From positions 248,001-312,000 of the forward strand of contig NZ_CP035130.1 of assembly GCF_004101785.1 (NCBI RefSeq): a stretch of DNA of 64,000 bases, given 5' to 3'. Origin of the DNA: Gudongella oleilytica (lineage in GTDB: Bacteria; Bacillota; Clostridia; Tissierellales; Tissierellaceae). A model generated the notes under the pieces. It ran no database searches. It was given only the letters and a program-made list of their open reading frames with translations, and was not told where the DNA came from. Each line of letters begins with the position of its first letter. Position 1 is the first letter of the stretch. Shown here piece by piece: positions 10,101 through 19,884 of the stretch. The translations under genes and the position numbers were made by a program.

Positions 10101-10493
10101 CTATCTAAACAGGTAAAACAGCGCACTGGGGAAGAAGATGTGGATCAGTAGCAGCACTACCGTCACCGCAGCCATCCTTTTATGCCACTGAAAAAGCACT
10201 CGCTTTTTCAACCTGTAGAAGCTCCCTCCAAGAGCTGCCGTTGCAAAGGCAGAAAGGTAAAGAAGAGTCCCCGTGTGGAGCCTGAAACCACCCAGTGCCA
10301 TATAGCCGTGAATAGGTGCAAGTATAGCGAGGGCAACACCCAGAGGCTTGTGGAATCTTCTTAAAATCTTTATCAGATCCCTGAAACCGTTACTCTTTGT
10401 CTTTATAATGTGTTTATTCAGAAAATTAAGCAGGAAGGGTGAAAGAAGAATCACCAATATACCTGCATTCAACCATCCCAATACCGAATACAT
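10101..10493 (-). CDS. Four-helix b-type heme membrane protein (putative)
   Basis: A 130-residue protein with four predicted transmembrane helices (about residues 4-24, 50-66, 75-92, 106-128). Histidines placed inside or at the ends of helices (RRFHKPLG, APIHGYMA, QWHKRMAA, LLIHIF) suggest bis-His heme b binding in the manner of cytochrome b561 or ferric reductase-like domains. It lies 18 bases downstream of a cytochrome b5-like lipoprotein gene on the same strand, so the pair may pass electrons across the membrane. I do not recognise a named family with certainty. Start ATG 10493 has gggggtg upstream. Confidence 0.6.
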   Translation of the reverse strand: MYSVLGWLNAGILVILLSPFLLNFLNKHIIKTKSNGFRDLIKILRRFHKPLGVALAILAPIHGYMALGGFRLHTGTLLYLSAFATAALGGSFYRLKKRVLFQWHKRMAAVTVVLLLIHIFFPSALFYLFR

Positions 10494-10511
10494 AGAACAC
10501 CCCCAGCTCTT

Positions 10512-10853
10512 TTAGTCTGCCAGCTTTCCAACTGCAGGAACATTTTCAAGCTTTCCAACTCCATGCGGGGAATCGTTTTTGATAGCATCTGTCAAATCCT
10601 GTCCGGCCTGGAAGCCATTGTGCCCGCCTTCCTTCCAAGCAGGCGAGTCTGTCATATCATATATGATGCCATCAACTGCAACGTAGGCTCTTCTTCCATC
10701 TTTTCCATCGTATTCAGCCAACTCCTCGAGTGTCAGCACCAGCTCCTCAGAGGGCTCCTCTGCCGGCTCTTCTGCAGGTGCAGTTGCACAACCAGCCAAA
10801 ACCATTATGGCTATCGCCAATATCAGTAGCAGATTAAAATACTTTCTTTTCAT
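10512..10853 (-). CDS. Cytochrome b5-like heme-binding lipoprotein
   Basis: A 113-residue exported lipoprotein. Lipobox LAGC follows a hydrophobic signal, then an acidic proline linker, then a small domain of the predicted heme/steroid-binding (cytochrome b5-like) type: LEELAEYDGKDGRRAYVAVDG, IIYDMTDSPAWKEGGH, AGQDLTDAIKNDSPHG. The two histidines in GGHNGF and SPHGVG are candidate heme ligands. It would act on the outer membrane face. Start at 10853 is set by aaaggag; a longer frame upstream has no site. Probably one operon with the four-helix gene. Confidence 0.75.
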   Translation of the reverse strand: MKRKYFNLLLILAIAIMVLAGCATAPAEEPAEEPSEELVLTLEELAEYDGKDGRRAYVAVDGIIYDMTDSPAWKEGGHNGFQAGQDLTDAIKNDSPHGVGKLENVPAVGKLAD

Positions 10854-11047
10854 AGATATCGCTCCTTTCGTATTTAAAGGGGTTGATGCTATTATACCCA
10901 GCAAGGGTTTAATGCCAACAAAAACAGTAGGTTATAAGCAAAAAAATGAATATGCATCAGGCTGTGAATTTGATATAATATACTAAAGTGCACACTTAAC
11001 TATTTCTAAAGTTGGCTCTTAAAATTCATAAATCAAGGGGGTAATAT

Positions 11048-11662
11048 ATGTACTTACATAAAAAGATAAAAACAGAAGATGCTCTTGACATAGACCGAAT
11101 TCAGGTTCGTAAGGCAAAGCCGGGCGATGAGGAAGGAATTTACAGAGTAGCCTGCAGCGTCAGCGGACAAAAGGATTCATATCAAGGCTTTCTGATGGAT
11201 GATTATCATTCAGACCCTGAATACTACTTGAATTTCTTCAGGGACAGAATAGAGAACCTGGAGTATTTTTTCGTGGCAACGATCAATAGTAAAATAATTG
11301 GATTTTCGCTCTCCTATAAGAAATCAATGTGGCTAAAGTATTATCCTGATTGGATAGAAAAAATCAACTGGCACCCCAGCTTTGATAAAAGCTTCCTCAA
11401 TGATTTCGTACTCATCGACAAAACCGCAATAGTGGCTGAGCACACAGGTGAAGGAATAGGAAGCCTGATATATGAAGAGATCATCAAGCAGATGAGGTCT
11501 CATAATATCCATTACATATTCTCAGAGACTCTTGTGGATCCTGTACCGAACTTTGCGTCACTTTCATTCAGAAAGAAGCAAAATTACCATCTTGCAGGGA
11601 TGAGATATGAGGAGCACAAAGGGATTATGTATACAGACCTGATTTACTGGAAGAAAATATGA
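11048..11662 (+). CDS. GNAT-family N-acetyltransferase
   Basis: A 204-residue protein with the GNAT fold: IQVRKAKPGDEEGIYRVA at the start of the domain, YFFVATINSKIIGFSLS as the central strands, and an acetyl-CoA loop region VLIDKTAIVAEHTGEGIGSLIYEEI that keeps the Q/R-x-x-G-x-G/A pattern loosely (TGEGIG). The substrate is unknown. A GC-rich terminator follows at 11669. It is a single-gene unit with ATATAATATAC-like promoter sequence about 70 bases upstream. Confidence 0.72.
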   Translation: MYLHKKIKTEDALDIDRIQVRKAKPGDEEGIYRVACSVSGQKDSYQGFLMDDYHSDPEYYLNFFRDRIENLEYFFVATINSKIIGFSLSYKKSMWLKYYPDWIEKINWHPSFDKSFLNDFVLIDKTAIVAEHTGEGIGSLIYEEIIKQMRSHNIHYIFSETLVDPVPNFASLSFRKKQNYHLAGMRYEEHKGIMYTDLIYWKKI

Positions 11663-11954: not shown

Positions 11955-11982
11955 TTGACATATTCCCTAAATCTGGTATACT
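11955..11982 (+). promoter_or_regulatory. Promoter of the rhodanese/FMN lipoprotein operon
   Basis: TTGACA (11955-11960), 16-base spacer, TATACT (11977-11982). It lies about 75 bases before the ATG, ahead of the cytochrome and maturation genes. Confidence 0.75.
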
Positions 11983-12056: not shown

Positions 12057-13250
12057 ATGAAAAGCAAAGCACGAATTATGAGCCTGCTTTTGGTACTTAT
12101 GATGTTTGCAACAGTGCTTACAGCATGCGCACCAGAGGCAGAACCTGCACCTGCACCAGCAGAGCGAAAGACTCTTACTGGAATCGGCGAGGGATTTGGA
12201 GGGGAAATAAAGGCAACTGTTGTAGTAGAAGGCGATAAGATAATCAGCGTTGAGGTAGTTGGAGAGGATGAGACTGCTGGAGTAGGCACACCAGCTCTTG
12301 AACAGCTTCCAGCTATTATTGTTGAAGCTAATTCAACAGAAGTTGATGTAATATCTGGAGCTACATATACCAGCGAAGGGATAATATATGCGGTGAATAA
12401 TGCATTGGATCCTGCCGCCTATCCAGCACCAGAACCAGCACCTGCAGAACCAGCTCTAATAGAAGAGGATGTACTTAGGGAAGCTGCTTTGAACTTGTTG
12501 AACAATATTCCTGACAACAACTTCATAATGGCTTCAGACGCAGCATTGGCACTTGCTGAGGAAAATCCCGATGCAGTACTTTGGGTAGACCTTAGAGCAG
12601 CTGAAGACTATGCTAAGGGTCATATAACAAACGCAGTAAACATTCCATGGGCTACACTTGGAGATAACCTTGAGGTCCTTCCAATGAACAAGCAGATCAT
12701 ATTCCAGTGCTATTCTGGACAAACCTCTGCTCAGGCAACTGCACTTGCTCAAATGCTGGGCTTCAATGCAGTATCCTTCAGAGGTGGAATGAACTTTGGA
12801 TGGGCTCCCCTAAACCTTGGAGAGGACACACTGCAAATGGATGCTAATCCACTTCCTGCAGCAAAGGCTCCTGAGCTTGACGAGAAAGAGCAAATCATCT
12901 GGGATGCTGTAAAGGCTTATTTCCCACCAGAAAAGAACAATATCATAGCTCCTGCAGATCTTCTTGCATTGGTAGAAGAAAATCCGGATGCAATAACAGT
13001 TCTGGACATCAGAGCGGCAGAGGACTATGCTAAGGGACACATTGAAACTGCAATGAACATCCCATTTAAGACTGTCGGAGCAAATATCGATCAGATCCCG
13101 ATGAACAGACCAGTTTATGTTACCTGCTACACAGGGCAGACAGCTGGAATTACAATAGCTCCAATGAGGATCATGGGCTTTAACGCAATCAGCCTTAACA
13201 GAGGAATGACCGGTTGGGATGGAGAAGCTCTTCCCACAGTAACTGAGTAA
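12057..13250 (+). CDS. Lipoprotein with FMN-binding and two rhodanese domains
   Basis: A 397-residue exported protein. Signal and lipobox (LTAC, Cys24) are followed by an FMN_bind domain (about 38-120) whose ISGATYTS motif matches the flavinylation site of ApbE-type FMN transferases, with Thr105 the likely attachment residue. After a proline/alanine linker there are two rhodanese domains (about 145-265 and 290-395), each with a DLRAAEDYAKGHI or DIRAAEDYAKGHI CH2-like motif and an active-site loop: QCYSGQTSAQ (Cys218) and TCYTGQTAG (Cys357). Both persulfide cysteines are present. The domains imply sulfur transfer coupled to a flavin on the outer membrane face. Its neighbour is a multiheme cytochrome 55 bases downstream, a likely electron partner (inference). 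No apbE lies in the window. Confidence 0.88.
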   Translation: MKSKARIMSLLLVLMMFATVLTACAPEAEPAPAPAERKTLTGIGEGFGGEIKATVVVEGDKIISVEVVGEDETAGVGTPALEQLPAIIVEANSTEVDVISGATYTSEGIIYAVNNALDPAAYPAPEPAPAEPALIEEDVLREAALNLLNNIPDNNFIMASDAALALAEENPDAVLWVDLRAAEDYAKGHITNAVNIPWATLGDNLEVLPMNKQIIFQCYSGQTSAQATALAQMLGFNAVSFRGGMNFGWAPLNLGEDTLQMDANPLPAAKAPELDEKEQIIWDAVKAYFPPEKNNIIAPADLLALVEENPDAITVLDIRAAEDYAKGHIETAMNIPFKTVGANIDQIPMNRPVYVTCYTGQTAGITIAPMRIMGFNAISLNRGMTGWDGEALPTVTE

Positions 13251-13305
13251 TAACTGGCAAAAGCGATTACACAATAACCTATTAGTTGGACAGGAGGTGA
13301 AGTCT

Positions 13306-14676
13306 ATGTCCAAACCCAAGGTTTTTAACAATTGGATAACAAGCCTTGTGGTTGTGGCAGTACTTGGCGTGGCGGCTTTAGGAGTATACCAGTTCGTCAT
13401 AGCTCCAACACTGCCTGAAGAACAGTATACTGAAGTAGGGGGCGGAGAGGACAAGCCATTTGAATTCCCGTCCATCGACAGCTCAAGCTGTGTGGCCTGC
13501 CATACAAGTGAGGCTGTCATAGCAGCATCGGATTGGGGCAAAGACAGGCCTGTTGCTGAAAACACTGGTGGCTGAGGCGCCGCTGGCCCACAGTTGGAAA
13601 CTGTGCAAATGTTTTTAGTATCAGAGGAATTCGTTGCATCAACTCATGGAAGCCTGGGCTGCATCACCTGTCATGGTGGCGAAAACGCACCTGACAAAGC
13701 AGTTGCCCATACCGACATGAATCCTTATCCGTCAAGAGATTATGAATCAACCTGCAGCGCATGCCACTCCGATGTAACAGGAGATTTCGACACTGCCATC
13801 CACTTCAACCTTAATGGAATGGCTAATGGTCTCTCGGAGTATGCAGGAATAACATCGTTGTCAGAGTCACCCCATCATGAAGAGGTATTTGGCAATGACT
13901 GTTACAAATGCCATGCAACCTGCGGGGACTGCCACGTCAGCAGACCAAAGAATTTTTCCAACGGTCTTGTTGAACAGCACACATTCCAGGGTACTCCTTC
14001 AATGGAGAACAACTGCTACGCATGCCATAATGCAAGAAACGGTGGAGAGTTTATGGGATTGGTAGGCTTTGGCAGTGACGTCCACTTTGATGCAGGCATG
14101 ACTTGTATGGACTGTCACCCGGTCAACAACTTCCATGGAACCGGAGAAGTACCTTATGATATGTGGGAGGTTGATCTACCGAGCTGTACCGACTGCCACA
14201 CTGACAAGGATCCTGCAGTTGCAACAGACGTAGAGCATAAGGTCCATGGGGATTCGCTTTCATGTCAGGTATGTCACGCTCAGGCAAACAACAACTGCTA
14301 CGAGTGTCACCTTGACGAAAAAGCTGATGGCTCAGGACTACAAAGCTCCTCGGAAATGAAAATTCAGTTTAGAGTAGGCTATAATCCCGAGCCTACTGAG
14401 GAAAGACCTTACAAGTATGTAGTACTTAGACACGTTCCCGGACAAGAATCCATGCTTGAGGTAGTTGAGGAGAATATGATGCCTAACTTTGACCAAAAGG
14501 TCAACTGGAACTATTCACCTTCCCACAATGTTCAGAAGAGCACCTTCCAGAACGAAAGCTGCGAAGCTTGCCATACCAACACCAGGATATGGCTTACCGA
14601 GGATGATTTAAGAGAAACGGACAGCGAGGCAAACAAGGCGCTTATTCCAGCGTTGCCGCCTTCACTGGATCACTAA
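13306..14676 (+). CDS. Membrane-anchored 11-heme cytochrome c with selenocysteine
   Basis: A 456-residue protein read through TGA at 13573-13575 (selenocysteine 90). An uncleaved N-terminal helix (about 10-33) anchors it. Eleven CXXCH heme sites begin at about residues 62, 119, 150, 199, 206, 237, 267, 294, 320, 331 and 419. Sec lies in N-T-G-G-Sec-G-A-A-G-P, between hemes 1 and 2. The frame is open on both sides with heme motifs on both sides, the codon is followed 13 bases later by a perfect hairpin, and aggaggtga precedes the ATG at 13306. The upstream gene encodes a flavin/rhodanese lipoprotein, and the downstream genes ResB and CcsA attach heme c. The role is probably extracytoplasmic electron transfer. 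Sec could be an active-site or metal/heme ligand, which the sequence cannot decide. No homologue with a known structure was recognised. Confidence 0.88.
13576..13608 (+). promoter_or_regulatory. bSECIS hairpin of the multiheme cytochrome
   Basis: CACAGTT (13589-13595), loop GGA, AACTGTG (13599-13605), perfect stem starting 13 bases after the TGA. The GG in the apical loop matches known bacterial SECIS loops. Confidence 0.75.
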
Positions 14677-14680
14677 AACA

Positions 14681-14705
14681 AGGGGGAGCCCAGCTCCCCT
14701 TTTTG
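14681..14705 (+). terminator. Terminator after the cytochrome gene
   Basis: AGGGGGAGC and GCTCCCCT pair with one bulged G, followed by TTTTT. It may attenuate rather than end transcription into resB, which starts 26 bases later without an obvious promoter. Confidence 0.75.
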
Positions 14706-14731
14706 TGCATTAATTCTCAATTAGGAGGTAG

Positions 14732-15988
14732 ATGACAATCAAGAAGTTCATCAGATATCTTACAAGTCTTGGGCTTGCGATCGCTCTTTTCATACTGATA
14801 GCAGCCTATTCCATCATTGGGACCGTTCTACCTCAGGGGTTGCAAAGGGAATTCTACATAGAAAGCTACAATAGTTTTGGAAACATAATACTTGCAATGC
14901 AGTTTGACAGAGTGTACAGCTCATGGATATTCAGGGTCCTTCTTGGAGTATTCATAGTAAATCTAGTGGGTTGTACCTTAAAAATACTTCCGTCACAGCT
15001 TGCCAGGCTGAAAGAGGAATATTTCCCACAGCCAAAGGCAGATGGAGACTCCTACAGCCTCGAACAGGGAGAAGATGAAGCCCTCAAGGATCAGCTTAAG
15101 AAACAGAGATATAGAATAACTGAAACTGATACAGGCTACAGAGCATCTAAAAGCAGAATAGGAAGTATAGGCTCTTCAGTGACCCATTTGGGGATAATCA
15201 TAATAGTCCTTGGAAGCTTTTTGGGAAATATGTTTGCCGAGGAAGGATTTTTTAATCTGGTTCCTGGCGATATAAAGCCTTTCCCGGAATATGGCTTCTC
15301 CTTAAGACTGGATGATTTTTACCTGGGCTTTAGAGAAAACAATACTGTTGAGCAGTATTACAGTGAGGTTTCAGTCTTGAGCCCGGAAGGAGGGGAATTA
15401 AAGGAAAAGCTGTGGGTCAACAAACCATTGAAGGTCCAGTCACTTAATTTCTACCAGACAAGCTATGGCTGGGCAAGCAGACTGTATATCAAGGACTCAA
15501 CAGGGGAGGTACTTGAAAGCAGGCTGCTCAGGAGTGGAGAATCCCATTTTTACCAACCGAGCCATATTACTATTTACCTCTACGGCTATTATCCTGACTT
15601 TAACATAACAAGCCAGGGAGAGCCTCTAACGATGTCGGAGAAGGAAAATAACCCCCACTATGCTGTCGTACTCTACCAGTTCAACAATCATATAGGCTCA
15701 TATATACTTGAACCTGGGCAGACGATAGATATGGATGGCTACACGATTTCCTTTAATGACTCTGTTCTTTACACGGGTCTTACCTATAGGAAGGATTTTG
15801 GCTACTTCTTCGTATTGGCAGGAAGCCTTGCGATGCTTCTTGGTTTGATACTTTCCTTCTATCTTTATCCAAGGTTTATTATTGTTGAGAATGGAAGGGT
15901 TTCTCCAATAACAAGGCAGAACAGCTGGGGCTTCAGCTACCAGGTAAGAAGGATGCTAAAGCAGATAACGGGACGGGAGGTAAGCTGA
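14732..15988 (+). CDS. resB: Cytochrome c biogenesis protein ResB/Ccs1
   Basis: A 418-residue System II component that works with CcsA to deliver and attach heme to apocytochromes c outside the membrane. Transmembrane helices are seen at about 12-32, 65-85 and 150-170, then a long extracytoplasmic domain with the family's LWVNKPLKVQSLNFYQTSYGW, and a last helix at about 350-372 (GYFFVLAGSLAMLLGLILSFYLYP). Start ATG 14732 follows aggaggtag. The neighbouring 11-heme cytochrome is the obvious client. ccsA begins one base after its stop. Confidence 0.9.
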   Translation: MTIKKFIRYLTSLGLAIALFILIAAYSIIGTVLPQGLQREFYIESYNSFGNIILAMQFDRVYSSWIFRVLLGVFIVNLVGCTLKILPSQLARLKEEYFPQPKADGDSYSLEQGEDEALKDQLKKQRYRITETDTGYRASKSRIGSIGSSVTHLGIIIIVLGSFLGNMFAEEGFFNLVPGDIKPFPEYGFSLRLDDFYLGFRENNTVEQYYSEVSVLSPEGGELKEKLWVNKPLKVQSLNFYQTSYGWASRLYIKDSTGEVLESRLLRSGESHFYQPSHITIYLYGYYPDFNITSQGEPLTMSEKENNPHYAVVLYQFNNHIGSYILEPGQTIDMDGYTISFNDSVLYTGLTYRKDFGYFFVLAGSLAMLLGLILSFYLYPRFIIVENGRVSPITRQNSWGFSYQVRRMLKQITGREVS

Positions 15989-15989
15989 T

Positions 15990-16811
15990 ATGGATATAAT
16001 ATTTTATGAGGAATTGTTTTTTACCTTGGGATTCATAGCATATACATTGTCTGCAATAGGATTTTTTATATATGTGGCACTTAAAAAGGATTCCGTTGGG
16101 AAAGCGGCTGTTCTGCTTGCAACACTGGGGTTTGCGATCCACACTCTGGCGATCGTCCTTAGGGTCATAGAGTCAGGCAGACTCCCCTTCAGCAATCAGT
16201 TCGAGTTTGCCACAAGCTTTACCTGGGGCATAGTAATGTGCTACCTCGTGCTTCACTATGCTTATAAATTCACTGCAGTAGGGGCATTTGTAATGCCTAT
16301 AGCTTTCCTTGTGATGGGATATGCATCTATGCTTCCTAAGAATATCAAGCCCTTGATGCCAGCTCTTCAGAGCGGTTGGCTGCCACTTCATGTGGGAACG
16401 GCCGTAATAAGCTATGGGGCTTTTGCAGTAGCAGCCGGTCTGTCAACAATGTATCTTCTGAATCTCAGAAAAGGAGCAGGCTCATCCGGGAAGGGATCCT
16501 TGCCTGATGCTGAGGTATGCGACTACCTAAGTTATAGGGTAATTGCATTTGGATTCCTTATGCTGACTCTTGTGATCATAACCGGGGCAATCTGGGCAAA
16601 AGCTGCCTGGTCCAGGTATTGGGGATGGGATCCAAAGGAGACCTGGTCTTTGATAACCTGGCTTATATACTCAGTATATCTTCATCTCAGGTTCAATAGA
16701 GGATGGAAGGGTAAGCCCGCGGCATTATTTTCGATAATAGGCTTTATTTGCGTCATATTCACATTTATTGGAGTCAATACCTTCTTGCCGGGTATACACA
16801 GCTACCGATAA
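15990..16811 (+). CDS. ccsA: Cytochrome c assembly protein CcsA/ResC
   Basis: A 273-residue membrane protein with about eight helices. It carries the tryptophan-rich heme-handling motif WGWDPKETWSLITW (about 208-221) and conserved histidines in LPLHVGTAVISYGAF and near SVYLHLRF. Together with ResB it forms the System II heme export and ligation complex. It is the last gene of the cytochrome block. Short dispersed repeats follow immediately. Confidence 0.92.
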   Translation: MDIIFYEELFFTLGFIAYTLSAIGFFIYVALKKDSVGKAAVLLATLGFAIHTLAIVLRVIESGRLPFSNQFEFATSFTWGIVMCYLVLHYAYKFTAVGAFVMPIAFLVMGYASMLPKNIKPLMPALQSGWLPLHVGTAVISYGAFAVAAGLSTMYLLNLRKGAGSSGKGSLPDAEVCDYLSYRVIAFGFLMLTLVIITGAIWAKAAWSRYWGWDPKETWSLITWLIYSVYLHLRFNRGWKGKPAALFSIIGFICVIFTFIGVNTFLPGIHSYR

Positions 16812-17111
16812 CAATTGACAGTTGACAATTGACAATGAAAAGCCAAGAGCTAAAAGCTAAAAAGGCAGTTATTAGCAGGTAGTAGGTAGTTGTTAGCGAA
16901 ATGATGAGATCCCTCGACTGCGCTCGGGATGACAGTAAATGAGTCATCGGAACGGTTAGAGGGATTTTTGATTTTAACTGAGATTCCTGAATTGTGAATA
17001 GTGAATTGTAATTTCAATTGTGCATTGTGCATTGTGAATTGTGAATTGTAATTTCAATTGTGCCTTGTGAATTATTAATAATTGGGTAACAATACCCTGA
17101 GGTGAGTTATC
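16812..17111. repeat. Cluster of short dispersed repeats
   Basis: A 300-base gap filled by repeat families: CAATTGACA units at 16812, TTAGC/AAGCTAAAA units near 16850, the hairpin-forming element GAGATCCCTCGACTG..GGGATGACA at 16906-16934, and AATTGTGAATTGTGCATTGTG units from about 16980 to 17070. The same families recur in at least five other gaps of the window. No gene is seen. Confidence 0.8.
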
Positions 17112-17922: not shown

Positions 17923-19884
17923 TCCATCTTTGACAGTTGAGAGACACAAAAACTCTGGAATGCATTGTAATTAGTGCACTTCAGAGTTTTCGCTTTGTTT
18001 AAAAACTGCGTAATGTATTCTTCTTTTTTGTTTCCTTAAAATAATTTTTCATCTTTTTTATGCTTACTATCTCATAATCTGTTCTGAACCCAAATGCCTC
18101 ATGCAAAGCATCAGTAAAATCAGTTCTCGTGTAGGTTGGAATATATCCTTCTGTTGGAATAGAGTAGAAATTCATATCTCTTAAACCATTAATAATCTCC
18201 TGACTTGTAAATTGTTCACCTAATAATTTCTCTAAATATCTATATAAAACTAATGCAAGAAAACATGTAGTGAAATGTGCCTGTATACGATCGTCTCTGC
18301 TTAAATAAACAGGCCTTGCCTTAAATTCTGATTTCATAATTCTAAAACATTCTTCAATTTCCCATCTTCTGTGGTTAATCTTTGTAATAGCTTCAGCATC
18401 ATCTTCTAAATTTGTACATACAGCATAAAATCCATCATACTTTTCTTCTTTAACCACTGCATCTGTATCTATACCATATATAGTTTCATCTGCAATTTCT
18501 CCATCCTTTGTAACGTTTGTAGATGATATAAACCTTCTGAAGTCATTTTGATTTTTCTTTTTGATATCTGATTTTCTGTTTGTAATTAACTTAGCTGCAC
18601 GTTCTAGCTGCCCAGCTCTAATCTTTCGTTGGTAATCTCTGTATTTGAGAGAATAGGTAACAATAAGCTTTTGCTCAAGCCCATCTTCTTTTATCCAACG
18701 TTCTTTGTAAAAGGTTTTATTTTTGTACTTATCATAGTTTTCTCCATCTTGATCGATTAGGTTAATATCAAATAAATTATCACTGCCTGCTAGGTGCCAT
18801 CCTGTTGGATCAAGAGCCCACTCTTTCAAATGTTTCTTTAATTTTTTTACAGACTGAGTTGTAATAAATGCTCTACCATTTATGTCATTAAATTTACGAT
18901 TATCTGTTGAAGATAATCCAGCATCAGTACATACAATGAATTTAGATAACTCAAAGTCTTTAAAAATTCTCTTCTCTAGCGGTTTCAGAGTAGTTTGTTC
19001 ATTGGTATTACCACTATGAATATCGAAAGCAAGGGGGATACCATCACCATCCATAAATAGTCCCATTCCCACTATAGGATTAGGCTTATGTTCCTTAGAA
19101 AATCCATATTGTTTAAGTCCATCTTCATTTTCTATCTCAAAAAAATAATTAGTGCAATCATAATAGAGAATACGGTCGTTTCTTTTTGAAACAGATAAAC
19201 TATTTTCATAGAGTTTTGACTGAATATAATCACTTTCTTTTGCAATAACCTCTAAAGCCCTATAAATATGCTGCAAATCAAAGTCTGGCTCTTCTAAAAG
19301 ATTACTAGACTCCTGATAAGTATTTAATTTTGAAGAAGGAAAAAGGATTCTTCCGTAAATTAACCTTGAAAGAATTGAGTCAAGATTAAATTCAAACTTA
19401 TATTTAGCAGAGATATTATCACAGATCTTATTTAGTCCAAGCATATGATAAAGCTGCTGTAAGAATAAATATCCACCATTAAAAGACCTTTGGATATTCT
19501 TATCAATTTGCCTTGATTGACTATATTTCACAATAACATCTCTATTTTGTTCATCTTCCTTTTTATTTAATTCATCAATATATTCTTTTGCCCATTCAAT
19601 AGGATCTTGTCCATTTAATTTTTCTTCTAATTCTCTTACAGTACCTAATTTCTCAACTATTTTAGTAGTACGTTTATTTCCTTCTATAACATCTTTGATA
19701 ACATAAAGTGAAGTCGAATTCTTAGACTTTGAAAATGATAATCTCATATTAAAACTCCCCCTATGCTTTATATTATAATATATTACGATATATTACGCAA
19801 TAAATATTTCCGAAAATTGACAAAAAAATAAAGCCTTTCCAATGGCTTTAGCGATTATTTTTTGAAGTAAGTGTCAAAGACCCG
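17923..19884 (-). mobile_element. IS1634-family insertion sequence
   Basis: About 1,962 bases between two identical 79-bp direct repeats. Near each end is the inverted motif TCTTTGACA (17927-17935) and its complement (19872-19880), four bases in from the direct repeat. The only gene is the transposase. Its AT-rich codon use differs from that of the neighbouring genes, which supports recent arrival. Confidence 0.85.
17999..19747 (-). CDS. IS1634-family transposase
   Basis: A 582-residue DDE transposase of the IS4 superfamily, IS1634 group. Seen are the N-terminal STSLYVIKDVIEGNKRTTKIVEKLG, the first catalytic aspartate region YYDCTNYFFEIE, the second VCTDAGLSS, and the C-terminal Y-x2-R-x3-E-like helix HRRWEIEECFRIMKSEF. 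Length is full for the family and no frameshift is visible, so the copy may be active. The start at 19747 has agggggag upstream. Confidence 0.92.
   Translation of the reverse strand: MRLSFSKSKNSTSLYVIKDVIEGNKRTTKIVEKLGTVRELEEKLNGQDPIEWAKEYIDELNKKEDEQNRDVIVKYSQSRQIDKNIQRSFNGGYLFLQQLYHMLGLNKICDNISAKYKFEFNLDSILSRLIYGRILFPSSKLNTYQESSNLLEEPDFDLQHIYRALEVIAKESDYIQSKLYENSLSVSKRNDRILYYDCTNYFFEIENEDGLKQYGFSKEHKPNPIVGMGLFMDGDGIPLAFDIHSGNTNEQTTLKPLEKRIFKDFELSKFIVCTDAGLSSTDNRKFNDINGRAFITTQSVKKLKKHLKEWALDPTGWHLAGSDNLFDINLIDQDGENYDKYKNKTFYKERWIKEDGLEQKLIVTYSLKYRDYQRKIRAGQLERAAKLITNRKSDIKKKNQNDFRRFISSTNVTKDGEIADETIYGIDTDAVVKEEKYDGFYAVCTNLEDDAEAITKINHRRWEIEECFRIMKSEFKARPVYLSRDDRIQAHFTTCFLALVLYRYLEKLLGEQFTSQEIINGLRDMNFYSIPTEGYIPTYTRTDFTDALHEAFGFRTDYEIVSIKKMKNYFKETKKKNTLRSF

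Follow-up and report, generated by a model that had tools for sequence, protein, structure and literature searches.

Gene block and rhodanese lipoprotein

The subject of this study is a block of four consecutive genes on the plus strand (positions 12057-16811) of a 64,000-nucleotide stretch of contig NZ_CP035130.1, hereafter the window, which is part of a complete genome of 2.36 Mb whose host is most likely a fermenter of the order Tissierellales. From 5' to 3', the genes encode a rhodanese lipoprotein, a membrane-anchored multiheme c-type cytochrome, ResB and CcsB/CcsA (Table 1); this content, the strand and the coordinates had all been read from the DNA alone in an earlier annotation (the original prediction), and translations together with Pfam and NCBIfam models now confirm them. 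The cytochrome very probably contains selenocysteine, and at most loci with testable flanks a lipoprotein of the same kind adjoins its gene. Tentatively, we see in these two proteins a redox unit acting on sulfur or selenium that is presented by the rhodanese.

Table 1. Positions of the block genes, their predicted sites and nearby features within the window.
Feature	Position	Strand	Basis
Predicted promoter-like site TTGACA-16-TATACT, TG before second hexamer	11955..11982	+	consensus scan, 11/12 matches
Lipoprotein, 397 amino acids: lipobox, FMN_bind, two rhodanese domains	12057..13250	+	PF04205, PF00581, motifs
FMN_bind domain, residues 46-118	12192..12410	+	PF04205
C218, active-site cysteine of rhodanese domain 1 (CYSGQTS)	12708..12710	+	invariant in the 8 lipoproteins of alignment A6
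C357, active-site cysteine of rhodanese domain 2 (CYTGQTA)	13125..13127	+	invariant in the 8 lipoproteins of alignment A6
11-heme membrane-anchored c-type cytochrome, 456 amino acids, probable U90	13306..14676	+	translation with TGA as U; PF14522, PF14537 over cut-off
In-frame TGA within motif TGGUGAAG, between the first two heme motifs, very probably U90	13573..13575	+	24/24 homologues
Hairpin resembling a bacterial selenocysteine insertion sequence (bSECIS), 7-bp stem, loop GGA	13589..13605	+	fold; one compensatory change in six Clostridial loci; covariation in 11 further loci
Terminator-like hairpin and T-run, between cytochrome gene and resB	14682..14698	+	scan
ResB, system II cytochrome c maturation	14732..15988	+	PF05140, 176.3 bits
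CcsB/CcsA, system II heme handling/attachment	15990..16811	+	TIGR03144 (CcsB equivalog), 267.3 bits (cut-off 187.6); PF01578
Cytochrome b5-like heme lipoprotein, possible partner	10512..10862	-	PF00173
Small His-containing membrane protein, perhaps b-type cytochrome, possible partner	10101..10493	-	no family match

The lipoprotein possesses a lipobox (LTAC, residues 21-24), scores 98.1 bits with the rhodanese model PF00581, spread over two stretches, and 60.1 bits with the FMN_bind model PF04205 (cut-off 22). In both rhodanese domains the cysteine lies within a CxxGx loop (CYSGQ and CYTGQ). Apart from the lipobox cysteine, the lipoproteins inspected have a single cysteine in each rhodanese domain, giving totals of three in the double-rhodanese and five in the quadruple-rhodanese form; one further cysteine, ahead of the likely start, occurs in one copy.

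The FMN_bind (flavin mononucleotide-binding) domain carries a putative FMN site, with T105 at the expected place within SGATYTS. The lipoproteins of relatives align to that of the window only from residue 116-126 on, and none of the other seven homologues in lipoprotein alignment A6 has an FMN_bind domain. The window lipoprotein is thus a fusion, and the domain, as the alignments have it, is an add-on present only in the copy of the source species among the homologues compared. The original prediction had counted flavin among the components of the system; the domain is indeed there in the window lipoprotein, but as a core component FMN_bind finds no support, as homologous lipoproteins at block loci lack it. 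In two alkaliphile genomes (L065, that of the cultured Anoxynatronum buryatiense, and L066) and, as read from the sequence, in L070, the opposite strand downstream carries a gene for a distinct FMN_bind lipoprotein. Given this neighbour, a functional link of FMN_bind to the block is possible but would be optional.

An 11-heme cytochrome with a predicted selenocysteine

As originally predicted, the cytochrome is an 11-heme, membrane-anchored protein: CxxCH occurs 11 times, and a hydrophobic stretch near the N-terminus (about residues 11-31) forms the anchor. Its reading frame is interrupted by a TGA codon, which in an alignment of 24 cytochrome homologues is kept in the same column in 24/24; at this column (U90) a cysteine form is found in none of them. 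These homologues comprise five relatives from two genera, six contigs from Clostridia, Chloroflexi and one deltaproteobacterium, and the Chloroflexota loci, and such conservation is informative because their identity drops to about 33%. That selenocysteine was never exchanged for cysteine in the 24 homologues suggests that selenium chemistry is required.

Downstream of the TGA, after about 14 bases, the window sequence forms a hairpin with the G in the loop expected for selenoprotein genes, and a hairpin was found at this place in 7/7 sequences folded, although for one Chloroflexota locus (L154) the minimum-energy fold favours a different pairing. In 11 Chloroflexota/Syntrophomonadaceae loci, whose hairpin lies one codon closer to the TGA than that of the window, 93.5% of the stem cells are paired and three pairs have changed on both sides. 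None of 500 shuffles matched the observed pairing percentage or covariation score, a count that is not to be read as a probability, as the sequences are related and the pattern is partly coding; sliding the pairing partners abolished the signal. The six close Clostridial loci taken alone gave one two-sided change and no significant covariation, the folding energy of the hairpin did not differ significantly from shuffles by itself, and an Rfam scan of the region returned no match. Furthermore, the genome encodes a tRNA-Sec (anticodon tca) and, about 1 kb from it, SelB (384.6 bits, cut-off 242).

It might be argued that the TGA is a true stop separating two cytochrome fragments, as ORF (open reading frame) finders indeed split the gene at this codon and the hairpin energy is unremarkable. 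This seems extremely improbable, however: it would leave the persistence of the codon in such divergent homologues, the covarying hairpin and the selenocysteine machinery to coincidence, and the downstream piece has neither a signal nor an anchor sequence of its own. Thus, because of its conservation, the covarying hairpin and the presence of tRNA-Sec and SelB, the TGA very probably codes for selenocysteine, which bears out the in-frame TGA plus hairpin of the original prediction. As ordinary ORF calling splits such cytochrome genes at the TGA, the block can also serve to mark them.

Each of the 11 heme-motif histidines is invariant across the 24 cytochromes, and ten free histidines (114, 135, 166, 225, 260, 277, 311, 314, 376 and 407) are conserved, two of these in 23/24. 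With eleven hemes against ten conserved free histidines, one heme is left without a conserved histidine partner. This suggests that one heme is unusual, and U90 is a candidate ligand or neighbour of it.

Very few multiheme cytochromes are known to contain selenocysteine. The cytochromes named in the selenoprotein-family table of a 2026 review, as found there by term, are ExtKL and the octaheme tetrathionate reductase type, and a literature search for selenocysteine multiheme cytochromes in Chloroflexi found no paper. In a scan of NCBIfam, no model covered the family, the best match, ExtM (NF040943), reaching 40.9 bits where the cut-off is 800. A class-wide search of 391 genomes recovered the family only in the window genome, so it is rare in Clostridia. 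Judged by its sequence, the cytochrome is best assigned to a new selenoprotein family, distantly ExtM-like and with a selenocysteine of its own, by which the block enlarges this small group.

The ResB of the block is the sole ResB in the genome, and the cytochrome is its sole Cytochrome_C7 match. Therefore, ResB and CcsB most likely serve the block cytochrome, in support of the dedicated maturation genes originally proposed.

Association of lipoprotein and cytochrome across genomes

A double- or quadruple-rhodanese lipoprotein adjoins the cytochrome in 19 of the 23 loci with testable flanks, in Clostridia and Chloroflexota (paired are the window, G002, G003, G018, G024, L065, L066, L068, L153, L154-L161, L163 and L164; G011 lies at a contig end and is outside the 23). 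In most Chloroflexota the order is reversed, with the cytochrome first, so the pairing does not reflect a single inherited gene order. At the Chloroflexota locus L154 (G789:C164, positions 3-2489), rhodanese repeats and an 11-heme selenocysteine cytochrome even form one open frame, the 5' end of which is cut by the contig, followed by a gene for a 4Fe-4S protein. Separate occurrence of the two proteins had been named as a finding that would overturn the original prediction; the adjacency in two phyla and the in-frame fusion instead support its view of rhodanese lipoprotein and selenocysteine cytochrome as one extracytoplasmic redox unit. Gene order and one natural fusion thus couple a selenocysteine cytochrome to rhodaneses with a single cysteine per domain, and the role of rhodanese lipoproteins beside multiheme cytochromes becomes testable on one fused protein, that of L154.

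Proposed function

From this pairing in either order, the fusion, the one cysteine per rhodanese domain, the invariant selenocysteine and the eleven hemes set against ten free histidines, we infer a direction, a substrate, a chemistry at the selenocysteine and an electron donor. In our model, ResB and CcsB/CcsA would attach eleven hemes to the membrane-anchored cytochrome, with its selenocysteine between hemes 1 and 2. The lipid-anchored rhodanese would hold sulfane sulfur derived from polysulfide, thiosulfate or elemental sulfur, or possibly a selenium atom, bound as persulfide or perselenide to the one cysteine of each domain. The selenolate of the cytochrome would then accept or attack this atom, a nearby heme, perhaps the one lacking histidine, would give the electrons, and the atom would be released as sulfide or selenide, while the remaining hemes would act as a wire from a donor in the membrane. 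That the two proteins act together on the outer side of the cytoplasmic membrane and reduce the sulfane sulfur or selenium which the rhodanese presents is quite possible, somewhat short of probable.

The neighbourhoods of the block in other genomes are consistent with such a wire. In two Tissierellia relatives (G018 and G024), rnfCDGEAB-like genes (read from the sequence, with no models scored) come directly after the block, and Rnf would be the donor there. In some Chloroflexota, NrfD or molybdo-oxidoreductase modules might take this part: genes for a 4Fe-4S protein, NrfD and a 10-heme cytochrome lie upstream at L068, NrfD is also encoded near L164, and a molybdopterin oxidoreductase and a ferredoxin/DmsC protein adjoin L160. 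None of the four block genes encodes a molybdopterin catalytic subunit as in Psr/Phs, the one found being that beside L160. Further support comes from related multi-rhodanese lipoproteins without a cytochrome in other genomes of the order (L104-L110), which adjoin genes for YeeE/YedE-like proteins, CoA (coenzyme A)-disulfide reductase-like proteins and sulfonate/taurine-type ABC (ATP-binding cassette) transporters and, in L108 and L110, selenouridine synthases; these neighbours fit a handling of sulfur or selenium by the related lipoproteins. Precedents are offered by extHIJKL of Geobacter and MmcA of Methanosarcina, to which we return below. One strain of the related genus Soehngenia reduces sulfur and thiosulfate, which is circumstantial for the block.

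Several points weigh against this proposal. Four testable loci (L067, L069, L070 and L162) have no adjacent lipoprotein; in the genome of L070, a Tindallia, a close lipoprotein relative is found on a different contig, next to the gene of a protein that has several FMN_bind domains. The homologues stem mostly from metagenome-assembled genomes, and the literature gave no expression, biochemistry or phenotype for any of them. The conserved M233 and M265 could be alternative ligands of the eleventh heme, so that the link between this heme and the selenocysteine is not forced, and the AlphaFold2 model of the cytochrome, made from an alignment of 12 homologues and with a mean pLDDT (predicted local distance difference test) of 41, was too poor for placing selenocysteine or histidine partners and was discarded. 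In the window genome, no rnf or psr genes adjoin the block. Finally, mutants of Ext, the nearest described analogue, connect that system with selenite, tellurite, Fe(III) and Mn(IV) but not with sulfur.

Alternatively, minerals, humics, dyes or flavin shuttles would receive the electrons by extracellular transfer, with the cytochrome as a surface wire that the rhodanese protects, senses or repairs. Eleven hemes, a membrane anchor and the rnf-like genes downstream in two relatives would suit this role, and the membrane-associated multiheme cytochrome MmcA of Methanosarcina acetivorans reduces Fe3+ and AQDS (anthraquinone-2,6-disulfonate) (PMC11024163). Moreover, Fe(III) supports growth of alkaliphilic Tissierella-rich cultures, and indigo is reduced by an isolate of the Tissierellaceae; however, these cultures need not carry the block, and the authors there invoke secreted mediators. 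Such a wire leaves the one cysteine per rhodanese domain, the invariant selenocysteine and the fusion unexplained, and we give it a small chance.

The reactions of rhodaneses and multiheme cytochromes are reversible, and gene content leaves the direction unfixed. Sulfide or another reduced sulfur compound might therefore be oxidised, its sulfur passing to the rhodaneses as persulfide and its electrons to the membrane. This is very unlikely in our view, as the carriers known by name are mainly anaerobic fermenters and neighbours of the Rnf and NrfD/DmsC type suit a reductive role better. Extending the reductive reading, the cytochrome might represent a new molybdenum-free class of terminal reductase, whose selenocysteine, adjacent to the histidine-lacking heme or ligating it, would take sulfane sulfur or selenium directly from a tandem rhodanese lipoprotein or a fused rhodanese, for the heme wire to reduce, making the block a respiratory module of Gram-positive fermenters and Chloroflexota. 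We regard this bolder version as rather unlikely.

Regulatory sites and neighbouring genes

The promoter-like site lies 75 bases upstream of the lipoprotein gene. The terminator-like hairpin behind the cytochrome gene could lower expression of the maturation genes, with the reservation that a similar number of such sites is expected by chance in the region. The b5-like lipoprotein, the small membrane protein and a GNAT protein are encoded ahead of the block (window 10101-11662), and their genes show linkage with it, at varying distance, in three genomes of the genus; copies of the small membrane protein that are about 68% identical occur block-linked in two congeneric genomes. A homologue of the GNAT protein is also encoded upstream of the Tindallia rhodanese lipoprotein (L100). 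On its other side, the block is bordered by an AT-rich intergenic region (window 16810-17080) with short repeats of the type tgaattgtgaattgtaatttcaattgtg, and just 3' of the block, on the minus strand (window 17999-19747), lies an ORF of 582 amino acids that by reading resembles an insertion sequence transposase (no family model scored).

Comparison with known systems

The original prediction held that no system of such composition had been described, a claim to which Geobacter provides the counterexample: in extHIJKL, a lipoprotein of the rhodanese family is encoded together with ExtKL, for which a selenocysteine is predicted, and an extI mutant shows defects in reducing selenite and tellurite, a process in which ExtKL is a proposed participant (PMC6148476, PMC5877670). 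As in extHIJKL(MNOPQS) of Geobacter sulfurreducens, a rhodanese lipoprotein goes together with a selenocysteine multiheme cytochrome in extracytoplasmic electron transfer. Further multiheme cytochromes are encoded beside ExtKL in the Geobacter cluster, and a gene for a LysR-type regulator stands beside the block in Chloroflexota loci, likewise upstream of extHIJKL in Geobacter. In contrast, the porin ExtI has no counterpart among the four genes and their near neighbours, and the block is hosted by Clostridia and Chloroflexota.

The individual parts also differ. The lipoprotein gave no match to ExtH (NF040901) at E up to 0.001, and profile comparison with two ExtH-like proteins reached a probability of 10.6%. 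For ExtKL (NF040886) there was no match in the window genome, a scan of the cytochrome gave none up to E 10, and the profile comparison yielded 17.8% over 22 columns, a similarity of heme motifs. Like ExtKL, the block cytochrome is a multiheme c-type cytochrome with one selenocysteine, encoded with a rhodanese lipoprotein; however, the ExtKL genes used here (as for ExtH, fetched from 297 genomes of the phylum of L069) encode five hemes and place the selenocysteine in the C-terminal half, within GHAIPDGUPTPNR, whereas the block cytochrome has 11 hemes and its probable selenocysteine within GxGU(G/A) between hemes 1 and 2. Among the ExtKL-family genes over cut-off, three had no in-frame stop and are apparent non-selenocysteine forms (G509:C12, G763:C10 and G685:C132); in G509 and G763 a TGA-containing form is also present. 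ExtM of the same Geobacter cluster, instead, is homologous to the block cytochrome (99.4% probability over 298 columns), although ExtM has 12 hemes, the fetched ExtM proteins contain no selenocysteine and the block cytochrome stays below the curated ExtM cut-off.

This kinship raises the question whether the block, in the manner of Ext, reduces or detoxifies selenite or tellurite, with the rhodanese binding reduced selenium as perselenide and the selenocysteine cytochrome reducing the oxyanions of selenium or tellurium outside the membrane. The composition shared with extHIJKL, the defects of the extI mutant, the homology with ExtM and the selenouridine synthase genes near related lipoproteins speak in its favour. 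However, the lipoprotein is not ExtH and the selenoprotein not ExtKL, a porin is absent among the four genes, and no selenium-rich habitat is known as common to the carriers; on balance, we consider this function unlikely.

For a reduction of rhodanese-presented sulfane sulfur or selenium, as we prefer, two further systems are instructive. Sud of Wolinella is a sulfur carrier to polysulfide reductase. Like the block lipoprotein, this periplasmic polysulfide-sulfur transferase (PDB 1qxn; similarity E 4.3e-6) is an extracytoplasmic rhodanese, but it is a single soluble domain serving the molybdoenzyme Psr, whereas the block lipoprotein has its domains in tandem, is anchored by lipid and is encoded next to a multiheme selenoprotein. 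MmcA, which is linked to rnf, has 7 hemes, no selenocysteine and no rhodanese, as against the 11-heme selenocysteine cytochrome and rhodanese of the block. Taken together, the block is best read as a probable variant of the Ext-type rhodanese/multiheme module, of the same kind but built from different parts, by which Clostridia and Chloroflexota would gain their own counterpart of the Geobacter module.

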